Below are positions 2 through 7,106 of a stretch of 64,000 nt of DNA, in pieces; position 1 is the stretch's first letter; each line of letters opens with the position of its first letter. The position numbers were made by a program, and so were the translations under genes. Below the pieces are notes generated by a model. The model was not told the origin of the DNA, did no database searches, and saw nothing but the letters and a program-made list of their open reading frames with translations. The DNA comes from Pseudomonadota bacterium (GTDB lineage: Bacteria > Pseudomonadota > Gammaproteobacteria > Steroidobacterales > Steroidobacteraceae), in assembly GCA_018241505.1 (NCBI GenBank), contig JAFEDS010000005.1:310001-374000 (forward strand), given 5' to 3'.

Positions 2-271
2 CAGTTGCTGCGCTTTCCCGTGAGCTGGAGCGATTCGTTGCTGTTGGAAAGCCTGGGGCAGGCCATCCGGGCCGCCGGGTTTGCCATCCCCGGATCCCTG
101 GGGATCCAGGAGGGCGGCTACCTGCTGCTGGCGCCGCTCGTCGGCATGCGGCCGGAGACGGCGCTCGCGCTTTCCCTGGCAAAGCGGGCCCGCGAGGTGA
201 TCCTCGGGGGGCCGGGTCTGTTATACCTGCACTTTTCGGAGCGGGGCTGGCGCCGCCGCTCCGTAGCTTGA
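2..271 (+). CDS. C-terminal end of a flippase-like membrane protein (HpnL / lysylphosphatidylglycerol synthase TM family), partial
   Basis: The reading frame is open from the left edge, so only about the last 89 residues are seen. They contain the conserved tail of the UPF0104/HpnL-type family, with PGSLGIQEGGY and then LAPLVGM and ALSLAKRAREV. Proteins of this family are multi-pass inner-membrane proteins thought to move lipid-linked substrates or lysyl-lipids across the membrane. The TGA stop lies 12 bases before the ATG of the next gene, so it is probably the upstream member of the phosphonate operon. A role as flippase for a phosphonate-containing lipid is inferred from position only. Confidence 0.7.
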   Translation, partial: QLLRFPVSWSDSLLLESLGQAIRAAGFAIPGSLGIQEGGYLLLAPLVGMRPETALALSLAKRAREVILGGPGLLYLHFSERGWRRRSVA

Positions 272-282
272 GAGGCATTTTG

Positions 283-1035
283 ATGCGCGCGATTATATTG
301 GCCGCCGGGCGCGGCATGCGTTTACAACAGGCAGAGGACCAACATACGCCCAAGTGCCTTCTGTCTTTCGACGGAGTGAGCCTCCTCGAACGGCATCTGC
401 GCATTCTGCGCAAGGCGGGCGTCGACGAAGTGGTGCTGGCGCTGGGATTTCGGCACGACCTGGTGGAGGCTGAGCTCGACCGCCTGGCATGGCAGCCCCG
501 GCCGCAAATCGTGCTGAACCCCGGGTACGAGCTGGGCAGCGTGCTGACCGTTCATACCGTTGGCGAAGCGCTCACGCGCGGCGGCGATGTGTTGTTGATG
601 GACGCCGATGTGCTGTATCACGAAGGCATCATGAGCGCACTCGTCGCCGGCCCCAAGCCGGTGAACCGGATTCTCATCGACCGCAATTTCGAGCCCGGTG
701 AGGAACCCGTGAAGGTATGTGTCAGTGACGGCGTCCCGGTCGAGTTTCGCAAGAAGCTCGCCCCCGACCTGAAATACGACACCATCGGCGAGTCCGTGGG
801 TTTCTTCAGGTTCGATTCCGCCGGCGCACGCCGCCTCGCCACGCTAGTAGCCGGGTACGTCAACAGCGGCCGTTCCAACCTGCCTCATGAGGAGGCCATT
901 CGCGACATGCTGTTGGAACGCAGCCAGATCATCGAAGTGACCGATGTCAGTGGGCTCGCGTGGATTGAGATCGATTTTCCCAATGATATAACCCGGGCCG
1001 CACGTGATGTGTTGCCCAGAGTTGCACCGCTGTAA
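283..1035 (+). CDS. NTP transferase, phosphocholine/AEP cytidylyltransferase-like (LicC type)
   Basis: A 250-residue GT-A-fold nucleotidyltransferase. The N-terminus carries the signature LAAGRGMRL followed by [10 protein letters not shown], and MDADVLY is the usual metal-binding acidic motif. Such enzymes couple a phospho-substrate to CTP or another NTP. ATG 283 is preferred over the upstream TTG at 268 because the protein then starts directly at MRAIILAAG and GAGAGG-like bases lie at good spacing. It sits 11 bases before pepM in a tight operon, so phosphonate (2-aminoethylphosphonate) or phosphocholine is the likely substrate, activated as a CMP ester. A sugar-nucleotide enzyme cannot be excluded. 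Confidence 0.75.
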
Positions 1036-1046
1036 GGACCGCGACC

Positions 1047-2747
1047 ATGAATGCACAAATGGAAACCCGCCCGGCCGCCCATGCGGGCGCCACCCCGTCA
1101 CGCAGCGCCCGCCTGCGCCAGATGCTCCTGAGCGAGCAGCTCGAATTCATCATGGAGGCGCACAACGGCATCTCCGCGCGCATTGTGCGTGAAGCCGGCT
1201 TCAAGGGTATCTGGGGCTCGGGCCTCACGATCTCCGCCCAGTTCGGGGTGCGTGACAACAATGAGGCGAGCTGGACGCAGGTCGTGGACATGCTGGAGTT
1301 CATGGCCGATGCCAGCGACCTGCCGATCCTGCTGGACGGTGACACCGGCTATGGCAATTTCAACAATATGCGGCGCCTGGTCCGCAAGCTCGAGCAGCGT
1401 GGCATTGCCGGTGTGTGCATCGAGGACAAGCAGTTTCCGAAAACCAACAGCTTTCTGAACGGCGAACGCCAGCCACTGGCGGACTCGGCCGAGTTTGCCG
1501 GGAAGATTGCCGCGGGCAAGGACACTCAACAGGACCCGAACTTTTCAATCGTGGCCCGCGTGGAGGCGTTGATAGCGGGTTGGGGCATGGACGAAGCCTT
1601 GCGCCGCGCCGAAGCGTACCGGCGGGCCGGCGCGGATGCCATTCTCATCCATAGCAAGCTGTCGAAGCCGGATGAGATCGTGACGTTCGCACGCGAATGG
1701 GCGGGGCGCGCGCCGCTGGTCATCGTGCCGACGAAGTACTACAGCACGCCCACGGACGTGTTCCGCAAAGCCGGTATCAGCCTCGTCATCTGGGCCAACC
1801 ATCTGATGCGCGCGGCCACCGCGGCCATGCAGAGTGTCGCCAGGGAAATCCACAACAGCGAGACCCTGGTCAATGTCGAAGATCAGGTGGCTTCGGTCAA
1901 TGAGATCTTCCGATTGCAGAACGCCGATGAATATGAGGCCGCCGAGCGCCTGTACCTGGCCGCCGAGGCCTCGCGCAGCGCCGTGGTCCTGGCTGCCAGC
2001 CGGGGTCGTGGCCTGGAGTCCATGACGGCGGACAGGCCCAAAGTGATGTTGCCGATCGCCGGCAAGCCCTTGCTGCGGTGGTTGGTGGATGGCTTCAAGA
2101 AGGAGCACATCAATGACATCACCGTGGTGGGCGGCTATCGCGTGGATGCCATCGACACCTCCGGCATCAAGCTGGTTGTCAACGAGCGCTACGCCGAGAC
2201 CAGCGAGCTGGCCTCGCTCGCCTGTGCGCTGGACGCTCTCGAGTCGGACACCGTGATTGCGTACGGCGACCTGATTTTCCGCAGCTATGTGTTGCGCGGC
2301 CTGGCGGAAAGCAAGGCCGATTTCTCGGTGGTCGTCGATTCCTCACCCAGCGCGTCCAGCAATCTGACGGTGCGCGATTTTGCATACTGTTCGCGTCAGG
2401 ATGACCGGGGACTGTTCGGAACCCCCGTGTTGTTGAAGCGCGTGACCAGTGGCAAACAGCCGGCCACGAACGCGCAGGAGCCGGTCAGCGGCCGTTGGAT
2501 CGGGATGCTGAAGGTGAGCCGGGCGGGTGTCAGCCGGCTCAAGGCGGTCATGGCGGGGCTGCGCGAGCGCCCCGATTTCGACCGCCTGGATATGCCCGCC
2601 TTGATGAATGCCCTCATTGCCGAAGGCGTCAACATCGAGGTGTTGTACGTCCACGGGCACTGGCGCGGCGTCAATGACCTGGAGGATTTCCGCCAGGCCG
2701 TCGACTTCGCGCACGCACAGACACCATTCGGGACCAGCGGCGAATGA
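1047..2747 (+). CDS. pepM: Phosphoenolpyruvate mutase fused to a nucleotidyltransferase domain
   Basis: 566 residues in two domains. Residues about 20-290 are PEP mutase of the isocitrate lyase superfamily: GDTGYGN near 98 and the diagnostic [10 protein letters not shown] at 126-135 separate true C-P bond formers from lyases. The enzyme converts phosphoenolpyruvate to phosphonopyruvate, the first step of nearly all phosphonate biosynthesis. Residues about 312-560 are an NTP transferase whose signature reads [12 protein letters not shown] then [15 protein letters not shown]; the usual AAG-x-G-x-R is altered to AASRGRG. Fusions of this kind are known and are linked to cytidylyl activation of AEP (PntC type). 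AAGGA precedes the ATG. The downstream ORF starts inside the stop codon. Confidence 0.93.
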
Positions 2748-3913
2748 TCCAGGCGCGAGACTTCGTCGAGGCGGCCCGTGAGCGGGGTTTTGAGTGGTGG
2801 GCCGGCGTTCCCTGTTCCTTCCTCACACCGTTCATCAACTACGTGCTGCAGGATCCTTCATTGCGGTATGTGTCGATGGCCAACGAGGGCGACGCTGTTG
2901 CGCTGATCGCCGGCACCACGCTCGGCGGCCGGCGTGGTGTGTCCATGATGCAGAATTCGGGGTTGGGCAATGCCGTCAGCCCCTTGACCTCACTGACATG
3001 GACCTTCCGTCTTCCACAACTGCTGATTGTGACCTGGCGCGCGCAGCCGGGCGTCCACGATGAACCGCAGCACGCGCTCATGGGCCCGATTACGCCCAAA
3101 ATGTTGGAGACGATGGAAATTCCCTGGGAGCTGTTTCCCTCCGCGACCGCGGACATCGGGCCTGCGTTGGATCGAGCTACCGCGCACATGGATGCCACCG
3201 GTCGGCCGTATGCGTTGGTGATGCAGAAGGGTACGGTTGCCGCACATGCATTGAAGCCCGGCGCAGGGTTTTCCGGCCACTCGCGCCGGTCGCCAGCGAC
3301 CTTGTTGGCACCGACCCTCCCAACCGACCGGCGCGCCACACGTCGCGACGCCCTACAGGAAGTCATCGCCCGGACGCCTGTAAATTCCACTGCAGTGCTG
3401 GCAACGACCGGCTTCTGTGGCCGCGAGCTCTACGCGGTCGAGGACAGACCCAACCAGTTGTACATGGTGGGATCCATGGGATGCGTCACCCCCATGGCGC
3501 TCGGGCTGGCGTTGGCTCGACCTGACTTGCGAGTCGTAGCGTTGGACGGGGACGGCGCGGCGCTCATGCGCATGGGCGTCTTTGCAACCTTGGGAGCCTA
3601 TGGCCCTCCAAACCTCCAGCACCTGCTGCTCGACAATGGGGTCCACGATTCCACCGGCGGCCAGGCGACCGTTTCCGCCGGTGTGTCATTTGCCGAGATT
3701 GCGGCGGCCTGTGGGTACGCTTCATCCCTGGAAACTGACGAGGTGTCCCGTATTGGCGCATGGTTGAGCGAACCGCCATTGCAGGGCCCGCGGTTCGCAC
3801 GCTTGCTGACTCGCCCCGGTTCCCCCGACGGACTCCCCCGGCCTTCAGTAACGCCTATCGACGTCAGGACACGTCTGATGCAACACTTCGGCTCTTCTGT
3901 CGGAGTCACTTGA
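2744..3913 (+). CDS. ppd: Phosphonopyruvate decarboxylase (ThDP-dependent)
   Basis: 389 residues of the thiamine-diphosphate enzyme superfamily. The protein opens with the family N-terminus, where [10 protein letters not shown] and [11 protein letters not shown] include the catalytic Glu region. The C-terminal half has the ThDP/Mg motif starting at [10 protein letters not shown] and ending at LLLDN. It converts phosphonopyruvate to phosphonoacetaldehyde plus CO2, which pulls the unfavourable PEP mutase reaction forward. ATGA overlap with pepM (4 bp) and TGATG junction with the transaminase indicate coupled translation. The family also contains sulfopyruvate decarboxylase, but the flanking pepM and transaminase settle the substrate. 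Confidence 0.93.
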
Positions 3914-4959
3914 TGCTTTTGCTCAATCCCGGACCGGTCACCCTCACGGAGCGTGTCCGCCGCAGCCTGCTACAGCCCGATCTGTGTCACCGCGAAAGCG
4001 AATTCTTTGCCTTGCAGGACGAAATACGCGAGCGGCTGCTGGCCACCTACCATCTGGATCCCCAGGTCTGGACGGCGGTGCTCATGACGGGATCCGGTAC
4101 CGCTGCCGTCGAAAGCATGATGGCCGCCCTGGTGCCTGCAAACGGCCGGCTGCTGAACTTCGAGAACGGAGTGTATGGCGAGCGGATTGCGCAGATGTGC
4201 GCCCAGTATGGGATTGCCCATGAGCGGGCGATCGGGTCGTGGATGGAACCGATCACGCTGCCGGCGGCGCCAGCGGGATTCACTCACGCCGCGATCGTGC
4301 ACCATGAGACCACGACTGGCCGTCTGAATGACTTGAAGCCGGTGATAAAGCTATGTCACGAGCGAGGTATGGGGCTGCTCGTTGATGGTGTCAGCAGCTT
4401 CGGCGCCGAGAACATCGACTTCGGCGCCGAGTGTTTGCACGCTGTGGCAGCGACGGCCAACAAATGCCTGCATGGAGTTCCGGGCGCATCCTTTGTCATC
4501 GCGCGGCGCACGGCTCTGGCAAAGGCCGCGAGCCGCACGTACTACCTGGATCTCGGCCGCCTGGCTCGGCTGCAGGAGCAGCGAAATACTCCGTTCACGC
4601 CTGCGGTGCATGCTTACTATGCGTTGGTGGAAGCGTTGCGGGAGTTCGCCGACGAAGGCGGGCGCGCGGCTCGCTACCAGCGGTATGCAGCCTTGGCTGA
4701 GCAGGTCCGTGCGGGTCTGGCCGATCTGGGTATCCATCCGGTGATTGCGCCGGAACAGTCATCGGTGGTGTTGCGTTCGTATCATTTGCCGCCGCAGACG
4801 CCGTACTCGCAACTGCACGACGCTCTGAAGGCGCAGGGATTCGTGATTTATGCGGGGCAGGGGGATTTGTCCAAGATGTTGTTCCGGATTTCCACCATGG
4901 GTGCCGTGACCTGCGCCGATATGAACCGGCTGTTGAAGTGCTTCGCGCAGCGCGGCTGA
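3913..4959 (+). CDS. phnW: 2-aminoethylphosphonate--pyruvate transaminase (biosynthetic AEP transaminase)
   Basis: 348 residues, class V PLP aminotransferase. The true start is taken as ATG 3913, which overlaps the ppd stop and gives the family N-terminus [20 protein letters not shown]; an in-frame upstream extension to 3760 would lie inside ppd. DVVTGSG-type contacts appear as LMTGSGTAAVE, and ATANKCLHG carries the expected PLP lysine. The enzyme interconverts phosphonoacetaldehyde and 2-aminoethylphosphonate. The same family is used in catabolism (PhnW with PhnX), but there is no phosphonatase here, and pepM and ppd upstream show that it works in the biosynthetic direction. Confidence 0.9.
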   Translation: MLLLNPGPVTLTERVRRSLLQPDLCHRESEFFALQDEIRERLLATYHLDPQVWTAVLMTGSGTAAVESMMAALVPANGRLLNFENGVYGERIAQMCAQYGIAHERAIGSWMEPITLPAAPAGFTHAAIVHHETTTGRLNDLKPVIKLCHERGMGLLVDGVSSFGAENIDFGAECLHAVAATANKCLHGVPGASFVIARRTALAKAASRTYYLDLGRLARLQEQRNTPFTPAVHAYYALVEALREFADEGGRAARYQRYAALAEQVRAGLADLGIHPVIAPEQSSVVLRSYHLPPQTPYSQLHDALKAQGFVIYAGQGDLSKMLFRISTMGAVTCADMNRLLKCFAQRG

Positions 4960-6248
4960 CACTCATCTGCGGCTGGGCTGCCGCTTGCTTTTTCGCAGTG
5001 CCATCCTGGGCGGATTCCTCGGACGGCCCTACGGACGTGCCCACGCCTGATGCGAGCGGAGTGCGTCCTGACGCGCCGAGCCCCGATTTCTCGCAGCGTC
5101 ACTGGTACAACGCGTTGCCGTTCATACCTGTCCCGGAGATCGGTCAGGATCCGAACAGCGGTACCACGCTCGGCGTGCTGCCGGTCTGGCTGATCACCGA
5201 TGATGAGCATCGCATCAAGCGGATCATTGCTCCGGACATCCTCTATAACCCCAACTTCGGTGCCGGTTTTCACGGCCGCATCTACGACTATCCGTCGGAA
5301 GACAAGCAGTGGTCGCTCATTGCGGGACTCAAACAGCGGGTGGAGCGCGAGGTCGACGCCGAATACACGCTGGGCCGCCTGCGCGAGCACCGCTGGTCGT
5401 TTACCGGAAATGTTGTCTACGAGCGGGACGGCGCCGCGCGGTTCTTCGGTATCGGCAACGGCACCGCGCAGCGCGACGAGACCAACTACACCAGCCAGCA
5501 GGAAGTCCTGCAGGCGCAGTTGGGATACAACTTCAGCAGGGCCTGGCAGTTGTTGTACACGGCGCGCTGGCGCTCCGTGGACGTAATGCCGGGCACACTC
5601 GACAAGATCGCTTCCATCGAGGCGCGCTTTCCCGGCGTCCGCGGCTTCGGAACCAACTACGAGCAGCTCAACAGGCTGTCCATCATCTATGACACGCGCG
5701 ACAGCTTCACGGCACCCCGCTCCGGAATGAAGTGGGTTGCCTACGGTGGTGTTGCCAGCCGTAGCGGCATCTTCAACGACTCGTTGTACAGCGAAGCCGG
5801 CATCGACGGCCGTACTTTCTGGCCCATCAACGCTGAAACGGTCCTGGCGAGCCATGTTTCGCTGCGCTATCTGCCCAGCACGCATCGTCTGCCTTTCTGG
5901 GCCCTCAGCAGCCTGGGAGGTGGGCAAACGCAGATCGGTGGCGAGCAGCCGCTGCGAGGCTTCGGCGACGGGCGGTTCTATGACCGCAATGCGTTCTCGG
6001 CGAGCGTGGAGCTGCGGCGGGTTGCGTTCAGTTTCGACGCGATTTCGCACGTGGAGATCGAAGTCGCCCCGTTTGTGGATGTCGGCAATGTCTTCCACGA
6101 AGGCGCGCAGTTCCCCATCAAGGGACTGCATAAGGTGGGCGGCGTTGGGTTTCGCGGCATTGCCCGGCCATCCGTGGTGGGGTATGTGGATGTCGGGTAC
6201 GGCAGCGACGGAGCGGCGGTTTTCACAGGTATCAACTATCCCTTCTAG
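4938..6248 (+). CDS. Outer-membrane beta-barrel protein, BamA/TamA (Omp85, surface antigen) type
   Basis: 436 residues starting at GTG 4938, inside the last 22 bases of the AEP transaminase gene. A signal peptide is clear: a hydrophobic stretch from LTLICGW to AVPSWA, then a Pro/Asp-rich mature N-terminus. The rest consists of alternating strands with many aromatic and glycine residues and ends in the aromatic terminal strand GINYPF, as expected of an outer-membrane barrel. The conserved ETVLASHVSLRYLP and GGEQPLRGFGDGRFYD (the L6-loop region) match Omp85-like barrels; no POTRA repeats are evident before the barrel. Its overlap with the phosphonate genes suggests a part in presenting or exporting the phosphonate product. 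Confidence 0.75.
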   Translation: MLRAARLTLICGWAAACFFAVPSWADSSDGPTDVPTPDASGVRPDAPSPDFSQRHWYNALPFIPVPEIGQDPNSGTTLGVLPVWLITDDEHRIKRIIAPDILYNPNFGAGFHGRIYDYPSEDKQWSLIAGLKQRVEREVDAEYTLGRLREHRWSFTGNVVYERDGAARFFGIGNGTAQRDETNYTSQQEVLQAQLGYNFSRAWQLLYTARWRSVDVMPGTLDKIASIEARFPGVRGFGTNYEQLNRLSIIYDTRDSFTAPRSGMKWVAYGGVASRSGIFNDSLYSEAGIDGRTFWPINAETVLASHVSLRYLPSTHRLPFWALSSLGGGQTQIGGEQPLRGFGDGRFYDRNAFSASVELRRVAFSFDAISHVEIEVAPFVDVGNVFHEGAQFPIKGLHKVGGVGFRGIARPSVVGYVDVGYGSDGAAVFTGINYPF

Positions 6249-6278: not shown

Positions 6279-7106
6279 ATGCAAGCGCTGCGCGAGTTCA
6301 TAGACGCCCATCCCAAACTGTTCGTGCTGACCGGGGCCGGGTGTAGCACCGGCTCCGGAATTCCTGACTATCGCGACGAGACGGGCGCCTGGAAGCGGGC
6401 ACAGCCCGTTATGTTCCAGGCGTTCATGTCGGACATCCACGCCCGCCGCCGTTATTGGGCGCGCAGTCTGGTTGGCTGGCGCCGCTTCGGACATGCATTG
6501 CCGAATGATGCACATCGTGCTTTGGCCCGTCTCGGGCAAATGGGTCGTACCGAAGCATTGGTCACCCAGAACGTGGATGGTCTGCACCAGTCCGCCGGAA
6601 GCACCAACGTGATTGATTTGCACGGCCGTTTGGACACCGTGCGGTGCATGAGCTGCGAGCGGCGCATGCATCGCGCTGACTTCCAGGACTGGCTGTTGGA
6701 GCTCAACCCGTCCTGGGAGAAGTTGGATGCCCGAGTTGCTCCGGACGGCGATGCCGATCTGGATGGGCTGGATTTTTCGACTTTTGAGATTCCTGCCTGC
6801 GCGAGCTGCCGCGGTCTCCTGAAGCCGGATGTTGTGTTCTTCGGCGAGAGCGTCCCCCGGGAGCGGGTGGCCGCGGCCATGGAGGCAGTCGAGCGTGCCG
6901 ACGCCGTGCTCGTGGTCGGATCCTCCCTGATGGTCTACTCGGGATACCGGTTTGCCCATGCCGCCGCCAAGGCAGGCAAGCCGATCGCGGCGGTCAACCT
7001 GGGGCGCACCCGGGCGGATGATCTCCTCGCCCTGAAGGTGAATCAGGCCTGTGTCCCGGCTTTGGCATTTCTCTTGGACGGCATCGCTGGCGGAACGGCA
7101 TCATAG
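6279..7106 (+). CDS. NAD-dependent protein deacylase, sirtuin (SIR2) family
   Basis: 275 residues. The Rossmann NAD site GAGCSTGSGIPDYRD is near the N-terminus, TQNVDGLH holds the catalytic His (HGR in DLHGRLDTV is also conserved), and zinc ligands form two CxxC pairs, CMSCE and CASC, separated by a long insertion. VVVGSSLMVYSGYR is the C-terminal NAD-contact motif. The class removes acyl groups from lysines with NAD+ consumption. The order of motifs and the long zinc insert resemble SIRT4-like class II bacterial sirtuins. It starts 30 bases after the outer-membrane gene and ends 4 bases before the next ORF, so it may be co-transcribed with either. Confidence 0.9.
   Translation: MQALREFIDAHPKLFVLTGAGCSTGSGIPDYRDETGAWKRAQPVMFQAFMSDIHARRRYWARSLVGWRRFGHALPNDAHRALARLGQMGRTEALVTQNVDGLHQSAGSTNVIDLHGRLDTVRCMSCERRMHRADFQDWLLELNPSWEKLDARVAPDGDADLDGLDFSTFEIPACASCRGLLKPDVVFFGESVPRERVAAAMEAVERADAVLVVGSSLMVYSGYRFAHAAAKAGKPIAAVNLGRTRADDLLALKVNQACVPALAFLLDGIAGGTAS

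Follow-up and report, generated by a model that had tools for sequence, protein, structure and literature searches.

What purpose does the phosphonate serve that is encoded at the start of a 64,000-nucleotide stretch of Steroidobacteraceae DNA (GCA_018241505.1, contig JAFEDS010000005.1, positions 310,001 to 374,000; G000:C42:310001-374000 in our labels, hereafter the window)? The genes concerned encode phosphoenolpyruvate mutase (PepM), phosphonopyruvate decarboxylase (Ppd), 2-aminoethylphosphonate (AEP) aminotransferase (AEPT) and a stand-alone cytidylyltransferase-like protein (NTase), and an earlier sequence-only reading of the window had assigned them to an AEP-decorated lipid or glycan. 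The target is most likely a hopanoid, because the array idi-hpnH-FPPS-SQS-shc-hpnG-hpnA-CDPAP-OG-hpnL lies just left of them, CDPAP being a cytidine diphosphate (CDP)-alcohol phosphotransferase and OG a HalD-like 2-oxoglutarate (2OG) oxygenase. We propose, with a probability of roughly 0.65, that the phosphonate genes are the headgroup arm of the hopanoid pathway and that the product is a phosphonohopanoid.

The left flank (locus L006, C42:292001-312000; window base 1 is L006:18001) holds, all on the same strand, the open reading frame of idi (L006:7973-8626), hpnH (L006:8640-9878; 526.6 bits, cut-off 225.05), the farnesyl diphosphate synthase gene (FPPS; L006:9875-10822), a squalene synthase-like gene (SQS; L006:10946-12121) whose best model match of 99.1 lies far below the equivalog cut-off of 286.75, the squalene-hopene cyclase gene shc (L006:12118-14130; 828.6 bits, cut-off 431.1), hpnG (ending at L006:14837; 177.9 bits, slightly below the cut-off of 187.1 and the best family match by far) and hpnA (L006:14834-15823; 490.9 bits, cut-off 367.65). 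These are followed by the genes for CDPAP (L006:15898-16581; PF01066 51.4 bits, cut-off 22) and OG (L006:16578-17291; HalD model over its cut-off) and by the whole of hpnL (about L006:17288-18271; TIGR03476 305.9 bits, cut-off 195.65). Together with the NTase gene, pepM, ppd and aepT they form a one-strand array with 4-bp overlaps at six junctions. The logic of AEP synthesis, cytidine monophosphate (CMP) activation, lipid transfer and flipping suggested by the sequence-only reading is thus supported, as CDPAP sits 1.4 kb left of the window edge. A complete, unrelated operon upstream would, by that reading's own account, have spoken against it; the upstream operon is complete but not unrelated.

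Within the window all genes of the array are on the plus strand, and every gene that the sequence-only reading had named was found in its place. The last 89 codons of the flippase-like hpnL (2..271; start near L006:17288, outside the window) are followed by the PntC-like NTase gene (283..1035; MobA/LicC-like, PF12804 49.3 bits, cut-off 27), pepM (1047..2747; 566 residues, TIGR02320 398.3 bits, cut-off 319.55), ppd (2744..3913; TIGR03297 445.2 bits, cut-off 312.5), the aminotransferase gene (3913..4959, or from a TTG at 3910; TIGR03301 369.8 bits, cut-off 360.8) and the gene of an Omp85-superfamily outer-membrane barrel with a GTG start (4938..6248; PF01103 60.2 bits, cut-off 24). The overlaps of 4 bp between pepM and ppd and of 22 bp between the aminotransferase and barrel genes are real. 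PepM carries the EDKxxxxxNS motif, as defined in PMC6697681 (cited here, like the other PMC articles, from excerpts), and is a fusion protein, a feature missed by the sequence-only reading: the mutase domain (residues 23-294) is followed by an NTP-transferase match (residues 312-430; PF12804 47.8 bits) that probably extends to about residue 560. This second domain (window 1971-2744) is strongly conserved over 109 rows despite its altered motif LAAxRGxxL in place of the usual LAAGxGxR, and PK and GD are kept.

Judged by their families, PepM, Ppd and AEPT would make AEP, and FPPS, SQS, SHC and HpnH would provide squalene, hopene and adenosylhopane, followed by trimming by HpnG. The PntC-like NTase would convert AEP to CMP-AEP, from which CDPAP would transfer AEP to a hydroxyl group of the hopanoid polyol side chain; choline and ethanolamine phosphotransferases act analogously on diacylglycerol. 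OG may hydroxylate the headgroup or the conjugate, possibly to give 1-hydroxy-AEP. HpnL would then flip the zwitterionic lipid, and the barrel, HpnM or MlaA-type proteins would carry it to the outer membrane. A product built on bacteriohopanetetrol (bacteriohopanetetrol-AEP, C37H68NO6P) would have a calculated [M+H]+ of 654.486, and its hydroxylated form one of 670.481.

The activation step is suggested by the relatives of the NTase. PntC of Treponema denticola is an AEP cytidylyltransferase in which Glu196 and Glu104 are located at the AEP amine, and PF12804-Ppm fusions are likewise established (PMC6697681). PntC is the nearest solved structure to the NTase both by sequence and by fold, and the NTase matches it better than LicC. 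In alignments read by eye, Glu196 corresponds to E203 of the NTase, which is invariant in 29 rows, and Glu104 corresponds to D107, an invariant Asp as in LicC. The stand-alone NTase is predicted to convert AEP to CMP-AEP. CDPAP has the signature of CDP-alcohol phosphotransferases, D(x)2DG(x)2AR(x)8G(x)3D(x)3D, in the form DHTDGELAR...GHIYDLASD; D78, D81, G82, A85, R86, G95, D99 and D103 are invariant in 23 rows. In all 16 Pandoraea loci CDPAP and OG form one open frame; the two are separate in the 43 other loci that have both on the same strand.

In fold comparisons OG is closest to HalB (Z 23.3), HalD (23.2), the hydroxylase 7jsd (22.5) and BesD (22.3), which are tied within 1; it shares the fold of the BesD/HalD amino-acid halogenases and of the related lysine hydroxylase. 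Halogenases of the HalD/BesD type bind iron through HxG, so that chloride has space to bind, whereas OG has HYD at this site; across 24 aligned rows its H121 and D123 do not vary. The halogenase reading of OG is therefore rejected, and OG appears to be of the hydroxylase type. The oxygenase that follows CDPAP in the cyanobacterial locus L086 has its best match in the methylphosphonate hydroxylase PhnY (201.8 bits, below the cut-off of 500). B12 radical-SAM genes adjoin CDPAP in cyanobacterial loci (L112:6654-8288, L086:1215-2864); within NCBIfam they come closest to the PhpK P-methyltransferases, at 77 bits against a cut-off of 600, and a P- or C-methylated headgroup is a possible outcome.

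The cassette is not confined to this genome. The best 80 of 512 relatives from one PepM scan of genome contigs were taken as related loci; here and below, neighbour genes were mostly found by tblastn with proteins of the window's own genome (E 1e-5 to 1e-15), which diverged homologues can escape. NTase, PepM, Ppd and AEPT occur together in 60 of the 80 loci, and all seven proteins including CDPAP, OG and HpnL occur in 42 (33 of the 35 loci titled as Burkholderiaceae genera); several of the other loci are truncated by contig ends. The barrel recurs in 3 of the 80. Since so many related loci share these sets, the array is not a chance arrangement. The flanks analysed contain a hopanoid gene in 41 of the 80 loci; among the 51 loci whose left and right flanks each reach 8 kb or more, 31 do so. 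HpnH is over its cut-off in the genomes of 49 of the 50 loci checked, Fukatsuia being the sole exception.

Gene order differs between Gammaproteobacteria, Pandoraea and cyanobacteria, and the pairing with hopanoid genes is kept. Gammaproteobacterial loci such as L101 and L093 read SQS-hpnG-CDPAP-hpnA-OG-NTase-pepM-ppd-aepT-dxs(other strand)-hpnH-hpnB-hpnM, L101 having an MlaA gene in addition; in many of them (L093, L101, L176, L212, L213) a dxs gene on the other strand separates aepT or ppd from hpnH. Pandoraea locus L062 reads aepT-dxs-hpnN(other strand)-hpnM-ispH-hpnH, with dxs directly after aepT on the same strand (L062:13973-15886), HpnN at 1247.5 bits (cut-off 1100) and a weak HpnM match (61.8 against a cut-off of 160.1). 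Cyanobacterial L112 starts with hpnJ (819.4, cut-off 577.6) and hpnI (365.6, cut-off 310). Then come a B12 radical-SAM gene and CDPAP, followed by the gene of a PhyH-family 2OG oxygenase and by NTase, pepM, ppd and aepT; hpnH and hpnA lie beyond these on the other strand. In a PepM tree of 90 rows (of 112, 4 were left out as duplicate places and 18 by thinning) hopanoid linkage switches at least 11 times; L178 and L181 are on very long branches.

Independent of these loci, PepM and HpnH were scored against curated cut-offs in 321 genomes drawn from the Gammaproteobacteria, the class of the window's genome. PepM is over its cut-off in 21, HpnH in 43 and both in 18, that is, HpnH is found in 18 of 21 PepM genomes versus 25 of 300 others (Fisher p = 5e-15, kinship ignored); with the window's own genome excluded the ratio is 17/20 versus 25/300 (p = 3e-14, again ignoring kinship). 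The 20 other PepM genomes span 12 families, and 10 families have both genes. Adding three PepM matches below the cut-off (E 1e-60 or better; G458 with HpnH, G245 and G361 without) gives HpnH in 19 of 24. In 9 of the 18 double-positive genomes pepM and hpnH lie on one contig within 10 kb. There are three exceptions: the 4-kb contig of G343 carries SQS and HpnG next to PepM, the PepM of G195 is a distant one, and G359 has a glycan-type locus.

Where the pathway is split, its parts remain with hopanoid genes. In G001 the hopanoid operon is followed by 3.5 kb with opposite-strand genes and then by CDPAP-OG-HpnL-NTase-Omp85, and PepM-Ppd lies about 530 kb from this module on the same contig. In G114 and G123, to which L056 and L076 belong, FPPS-SQS-HpnG-HpnA-NTase-Ppd-(DXS)-HpnH-HpnB-HpnM lies at one place and CDPAP-OG-HpnL-PepM-AEPT on another contig. 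Different parts of the pathway thus stay with hopanoid genes in different genomes, which chance neighbourhood does not predict. L056 and L089, both with hopanoid-phosphonate genes, are labelled as Klebsiella pneumoniae metagenome-assembled genomes, and these labels look wrong. Beyond the window, we give somewhat better than even odds to the wider view that phosphonohopanoids are a whole class of bacterial triterpenoid lipids, in which a CMP-AEP-dependent CDPAP has joined AEP or hydroxy-AEP to hopanoid polyols as an ester. On this view the class is widely encoded in cyanobacteria and in Gammaproteobacteria, Burkholderiaceae among them, and is a main destination of PepM phosphonates in Gammaproteobacteria.

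Several observations of this and the following paragraph weigh against a hopanoid product. Acceptor and product were inferred from genes. The CDPAP sequence gives no pointer to its acceptor, as relatives of differing kinds match in profile searches (AF2299, IPCT-DIPPS and CEPT1); CEPT1 (8gyw, E 2.9e-07) represents the well-known diacylglycerol-acceptor relatives. No hopanoid gene was found in the flanks analysed for the 12 Cupriavidus loci, nor in those around the cassette in G031, G052 and G058. Co-occurrence within the window's own genus, and perhaps within Burkholderiaceae, says little, because these groups are rich in hopanoid genes. The CEPT1 match and the cassettes away from hopanoid genes would suit an ordinary phosphonolipid, in which CDPAP moves AEP from CMP-AEP onto diacylglycerol or ceramide; the hopanoid genes would then be nearby just through shared control of outer-membrane lipids. 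We consider it unlikely: diacylglycerol is near universal, yet in seven genomes that have PepM over its cut-off but no HpnH at that level, CDPAP, OG and HpnL were not found at the PepM locus (L051, L175, L178, L179, L180, L182, L183), HpnH accompanies PepM in 18 of 21 genomes of the class sample, and the split halves remain with hopanoid genes. The genomes of all 11 Cupriavidus-titled loci among the 50 checked have HpnH over the cut-off. In addition, hpnL is reported to be absent from alphaproteobacterial genomes without hpnH, among those studied in the excerpts of PMC12583986. A further point concerns transcription. A weak terminator-like hairpin (6 pairs, 3 of them G-C; L006:15840-15855) lies within the 74-bp gap between hpnA and CDPAP, so that co-transcription here and along the whole array is an assumption. 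At window 268-296 a promoter-like site straddles the boundary of hpnL and the NTase gene. Two scans gave 2 and 3 promoter-like sites (shuffles 1.9, sd 1.5, and 1.5, sd 1.2) and 13 and 7 terminator-like sites (shuffles 8.4, sd 2.9, and 5.3, sd 2.4).

The dependence of the module on PepM was examined from the other side in 20 hopanoid loci, hand-picked from PepM-less HpnH genomes and including two short ones (10.5 and 11.2 kb): none has CDPAP, OG or NTase, and HpnL-like matches are at most 36% identical. Two genomes found later are exceptions to this control, namely G040 (95% complete), with CDPAP-OG-HpnL-NTase-Omp85, and G032 (77% complete), with the 3' part of the module, HpnL-NTase-Omp85; PepM and Ppd were found in neither. 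At the same place of a hopanoid operon, L205 (G050:C60:18001-38000) has just partial matches to OG, NTase and aepT and no PepM over the cut-off; these are remnants of the cassette. In G016 (78% complete) a fragmented PepM below the cut-off adjoins HpnL and NTase, and HpnH is not over its cut-off; this genome goes counter to the seven PepM loci without CDPAP, OG and HpnL named above. G040, G032 and G050 would fit a module (CDPAP, OG, HpnL, NTase, Omp85) that adds a phospho-headgroup such as phosphoethanolamine to hopanoids, with PepM-Ppd-AEPT as an add-on giving a C-P headgroup in some strains. To us this is quite improbable, as G040 and G032 are draft bins, G001 demonstrates that PepM may lie far off, and the NTase scores better with PntC than with LicC. 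G114 and G123 are bins as well, with their two loci on different contigs, and their split may have come about when some genes of an older cluster were replaced laterally. Three genomes carry a second kind of AEP aminotransferase (G032:C304, G040:C166, G001:C11; 465-476 bits to TIGR03301) that is about a third identical to that of the window; PepM was not detected in two of them, and this enzyme perhaps serves AEP breakdown. Finally, displacement of HpnI, and with it of the glucosamine headgroup, by the phosphonate headgroup was considered and rejected: HpnI is over its cut-off in 7 of 18 class genomes with PepM and HpnH versus 9 of 25 with HpnH and no PepM. Within the genus, hpnI is on a contig other than that of hpnH (G000:C4:30850, G001:C17, G005:C252 and C230, G038:C15, G050:C131) in genomes that carry, or formerly carried, the module at the hopanoid operon; in several others (e.g. 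G003, G025, G045) hpnI adjoins hpnH.

A surface glycan (lipopolysaccharide or capsule) as the destination of AEP, as in other PepM clusters with glycan targets (PMC6697681), would match the glycan half of the target named by the sequence-only reading. Of the two, the lipid stands, most likely as a hopanoid, which that reading did not mention; the glycan is far less likely, for a scan of ten proteins encoded upstream turned up CDPAP and HpnL but no glycan transferase. A glycosyltransferase associated with hopene, HpnB, is nevertheless encoded in some loci of Gammaproteobacteria. Glycan-type or lic-like genes are present in three of the four scanned PepM loci without HpnH (L175, L179 and L051, not L180): the flanks of L175 and L179 hold genes of the CDP-glycerol glycerophosphotransferase type (Glyphos_transf), and two flanking proteins of L180 were uninformative. 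As these three loci belong to genomes without HpnH over the cut-off, we regard a glycan destination for the window's genes as very improbable. L051, from the insect symbiont Candidatus Fukatsuia symbiotica, has an NTase-PepM-Ppd-AEPT set of the same clade, and its neighbours encode choline-kinase, EamA and NTP-transferase proteins, a combination found in lic loci; the same head has perhaps been re-used for another target.

The remaining member of the locus is the barrel, which the sequence-only reading took for a pathway partner of pepM. It has the Pfam Omp85 domain and scores 120.5 bits against the Omp85 family model NF047779, below the cut-off of 200. A homologue (E 1e-30) is present in 48 of the 58 genomes of the genus and PepM over the cut-off in just 6 of 58. 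The tie to pepM thus fails the check set by the sequence-only reading, for which a barrel without pepM in most relatives would count against it, and a pepM-specific export part is rejected. HpnH was looked for in 19 (G016 included) of the 52 genomes of the genus that do not have PepM over the cut-off. It is present in 15, and in 9 of them about 6 kb separate the barrel gene from hpnH. In five of the 20 PepM-less hopanoid loci, all from this genus (L184, L186-L189), the operon ends with hpnA, followed by an Omp85 gene on the other strand, and the barrel is found at the end of hopanoid operons of the genus with or without pepM (window, L184, L186-L189, L206). A copy directly follows the aminotransferase gene in G031, G052 and G058; a second copy adjoins the hopanoid operon in G031 and is on a different contig in G052. 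In this genus the barrel is tied to hopanoids first. An outer-membrane role for hopanoids is therefore plausible, and the barrel is a candidate outer-membrane hopanoid factor. A Sir2 deacetylase gene (6279-7106; NF003738 464 bits, cut-off 305) begins 30 bp past the barrel, as also in L038. Neither a tRNA nor an Rfam family above threshold was found in the window.

The linkage of hopanoid and phosphonate genes is not wholly new. For Roseomonas, a hopene cyclase linked to a PEP mutase was described as a 'hybrid cluster' for which an 'undiscovered terpene-phosphonate' was proposed (PMC8776678); the excerpts of that report concern one family and leave the transferase, activation and flipping steps unnamed. 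In the open-licence PMC literature (subscription papers and supplements being outside) it was the only article found on hopanoids with aminoethylphosphonate; PMC10942540, PMC9222137 and PMC6190654 concern other matters in their excerpts. The Pnt phosphonyl tailoring pathway shares Ppm-Ppd-AEPT, an AEP cytidylyltransferase and the Ppm-PF12804 fusion with our locus; its proposed targets are glycans or lipids in general, and its main text lacks the word stem 'hopan' (PMC6697681). The present analysis adds that the module recurs, with a gene fusion and split loci, and predicts its route across Gammaproteobacteria (including Burkholderiaceae) and cyanobacteria; this breadth, the full module and the fusion and split-locus evidence were not found in the excerpts of PMC8776678, PMC12583986 and PMC6697681. 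The hpn clusters with the headgroup genes HpnI, HpnK and HpnJ share the hopene, adenosylhopane and HpnA/HpnL genes with our locus, which differs from them by its CDP-alcohol phosphotransferase and phosphonate genes. To our knowledge, the known hopanoid headgroups are sugars, cyclitols or amines.

A phosphonohopanoid would offer a concrete product for PepM clusters for which we have found no end product described. It would also give a likely job to HpnL, whose function, like those of HpnA and HpnB, is not established according to the excerpts of PMC12583986. Such a headgroup could escape routine hopanoid work-ups. Sedimentary hopanes derive from hopanoids, and phosphonates play a part in phosphorus cycling, so a lipid joining the two could be sought directly by mass and 31P nuclear magnetic resonance in cultivable Cupriavidus or cyanobacteria.

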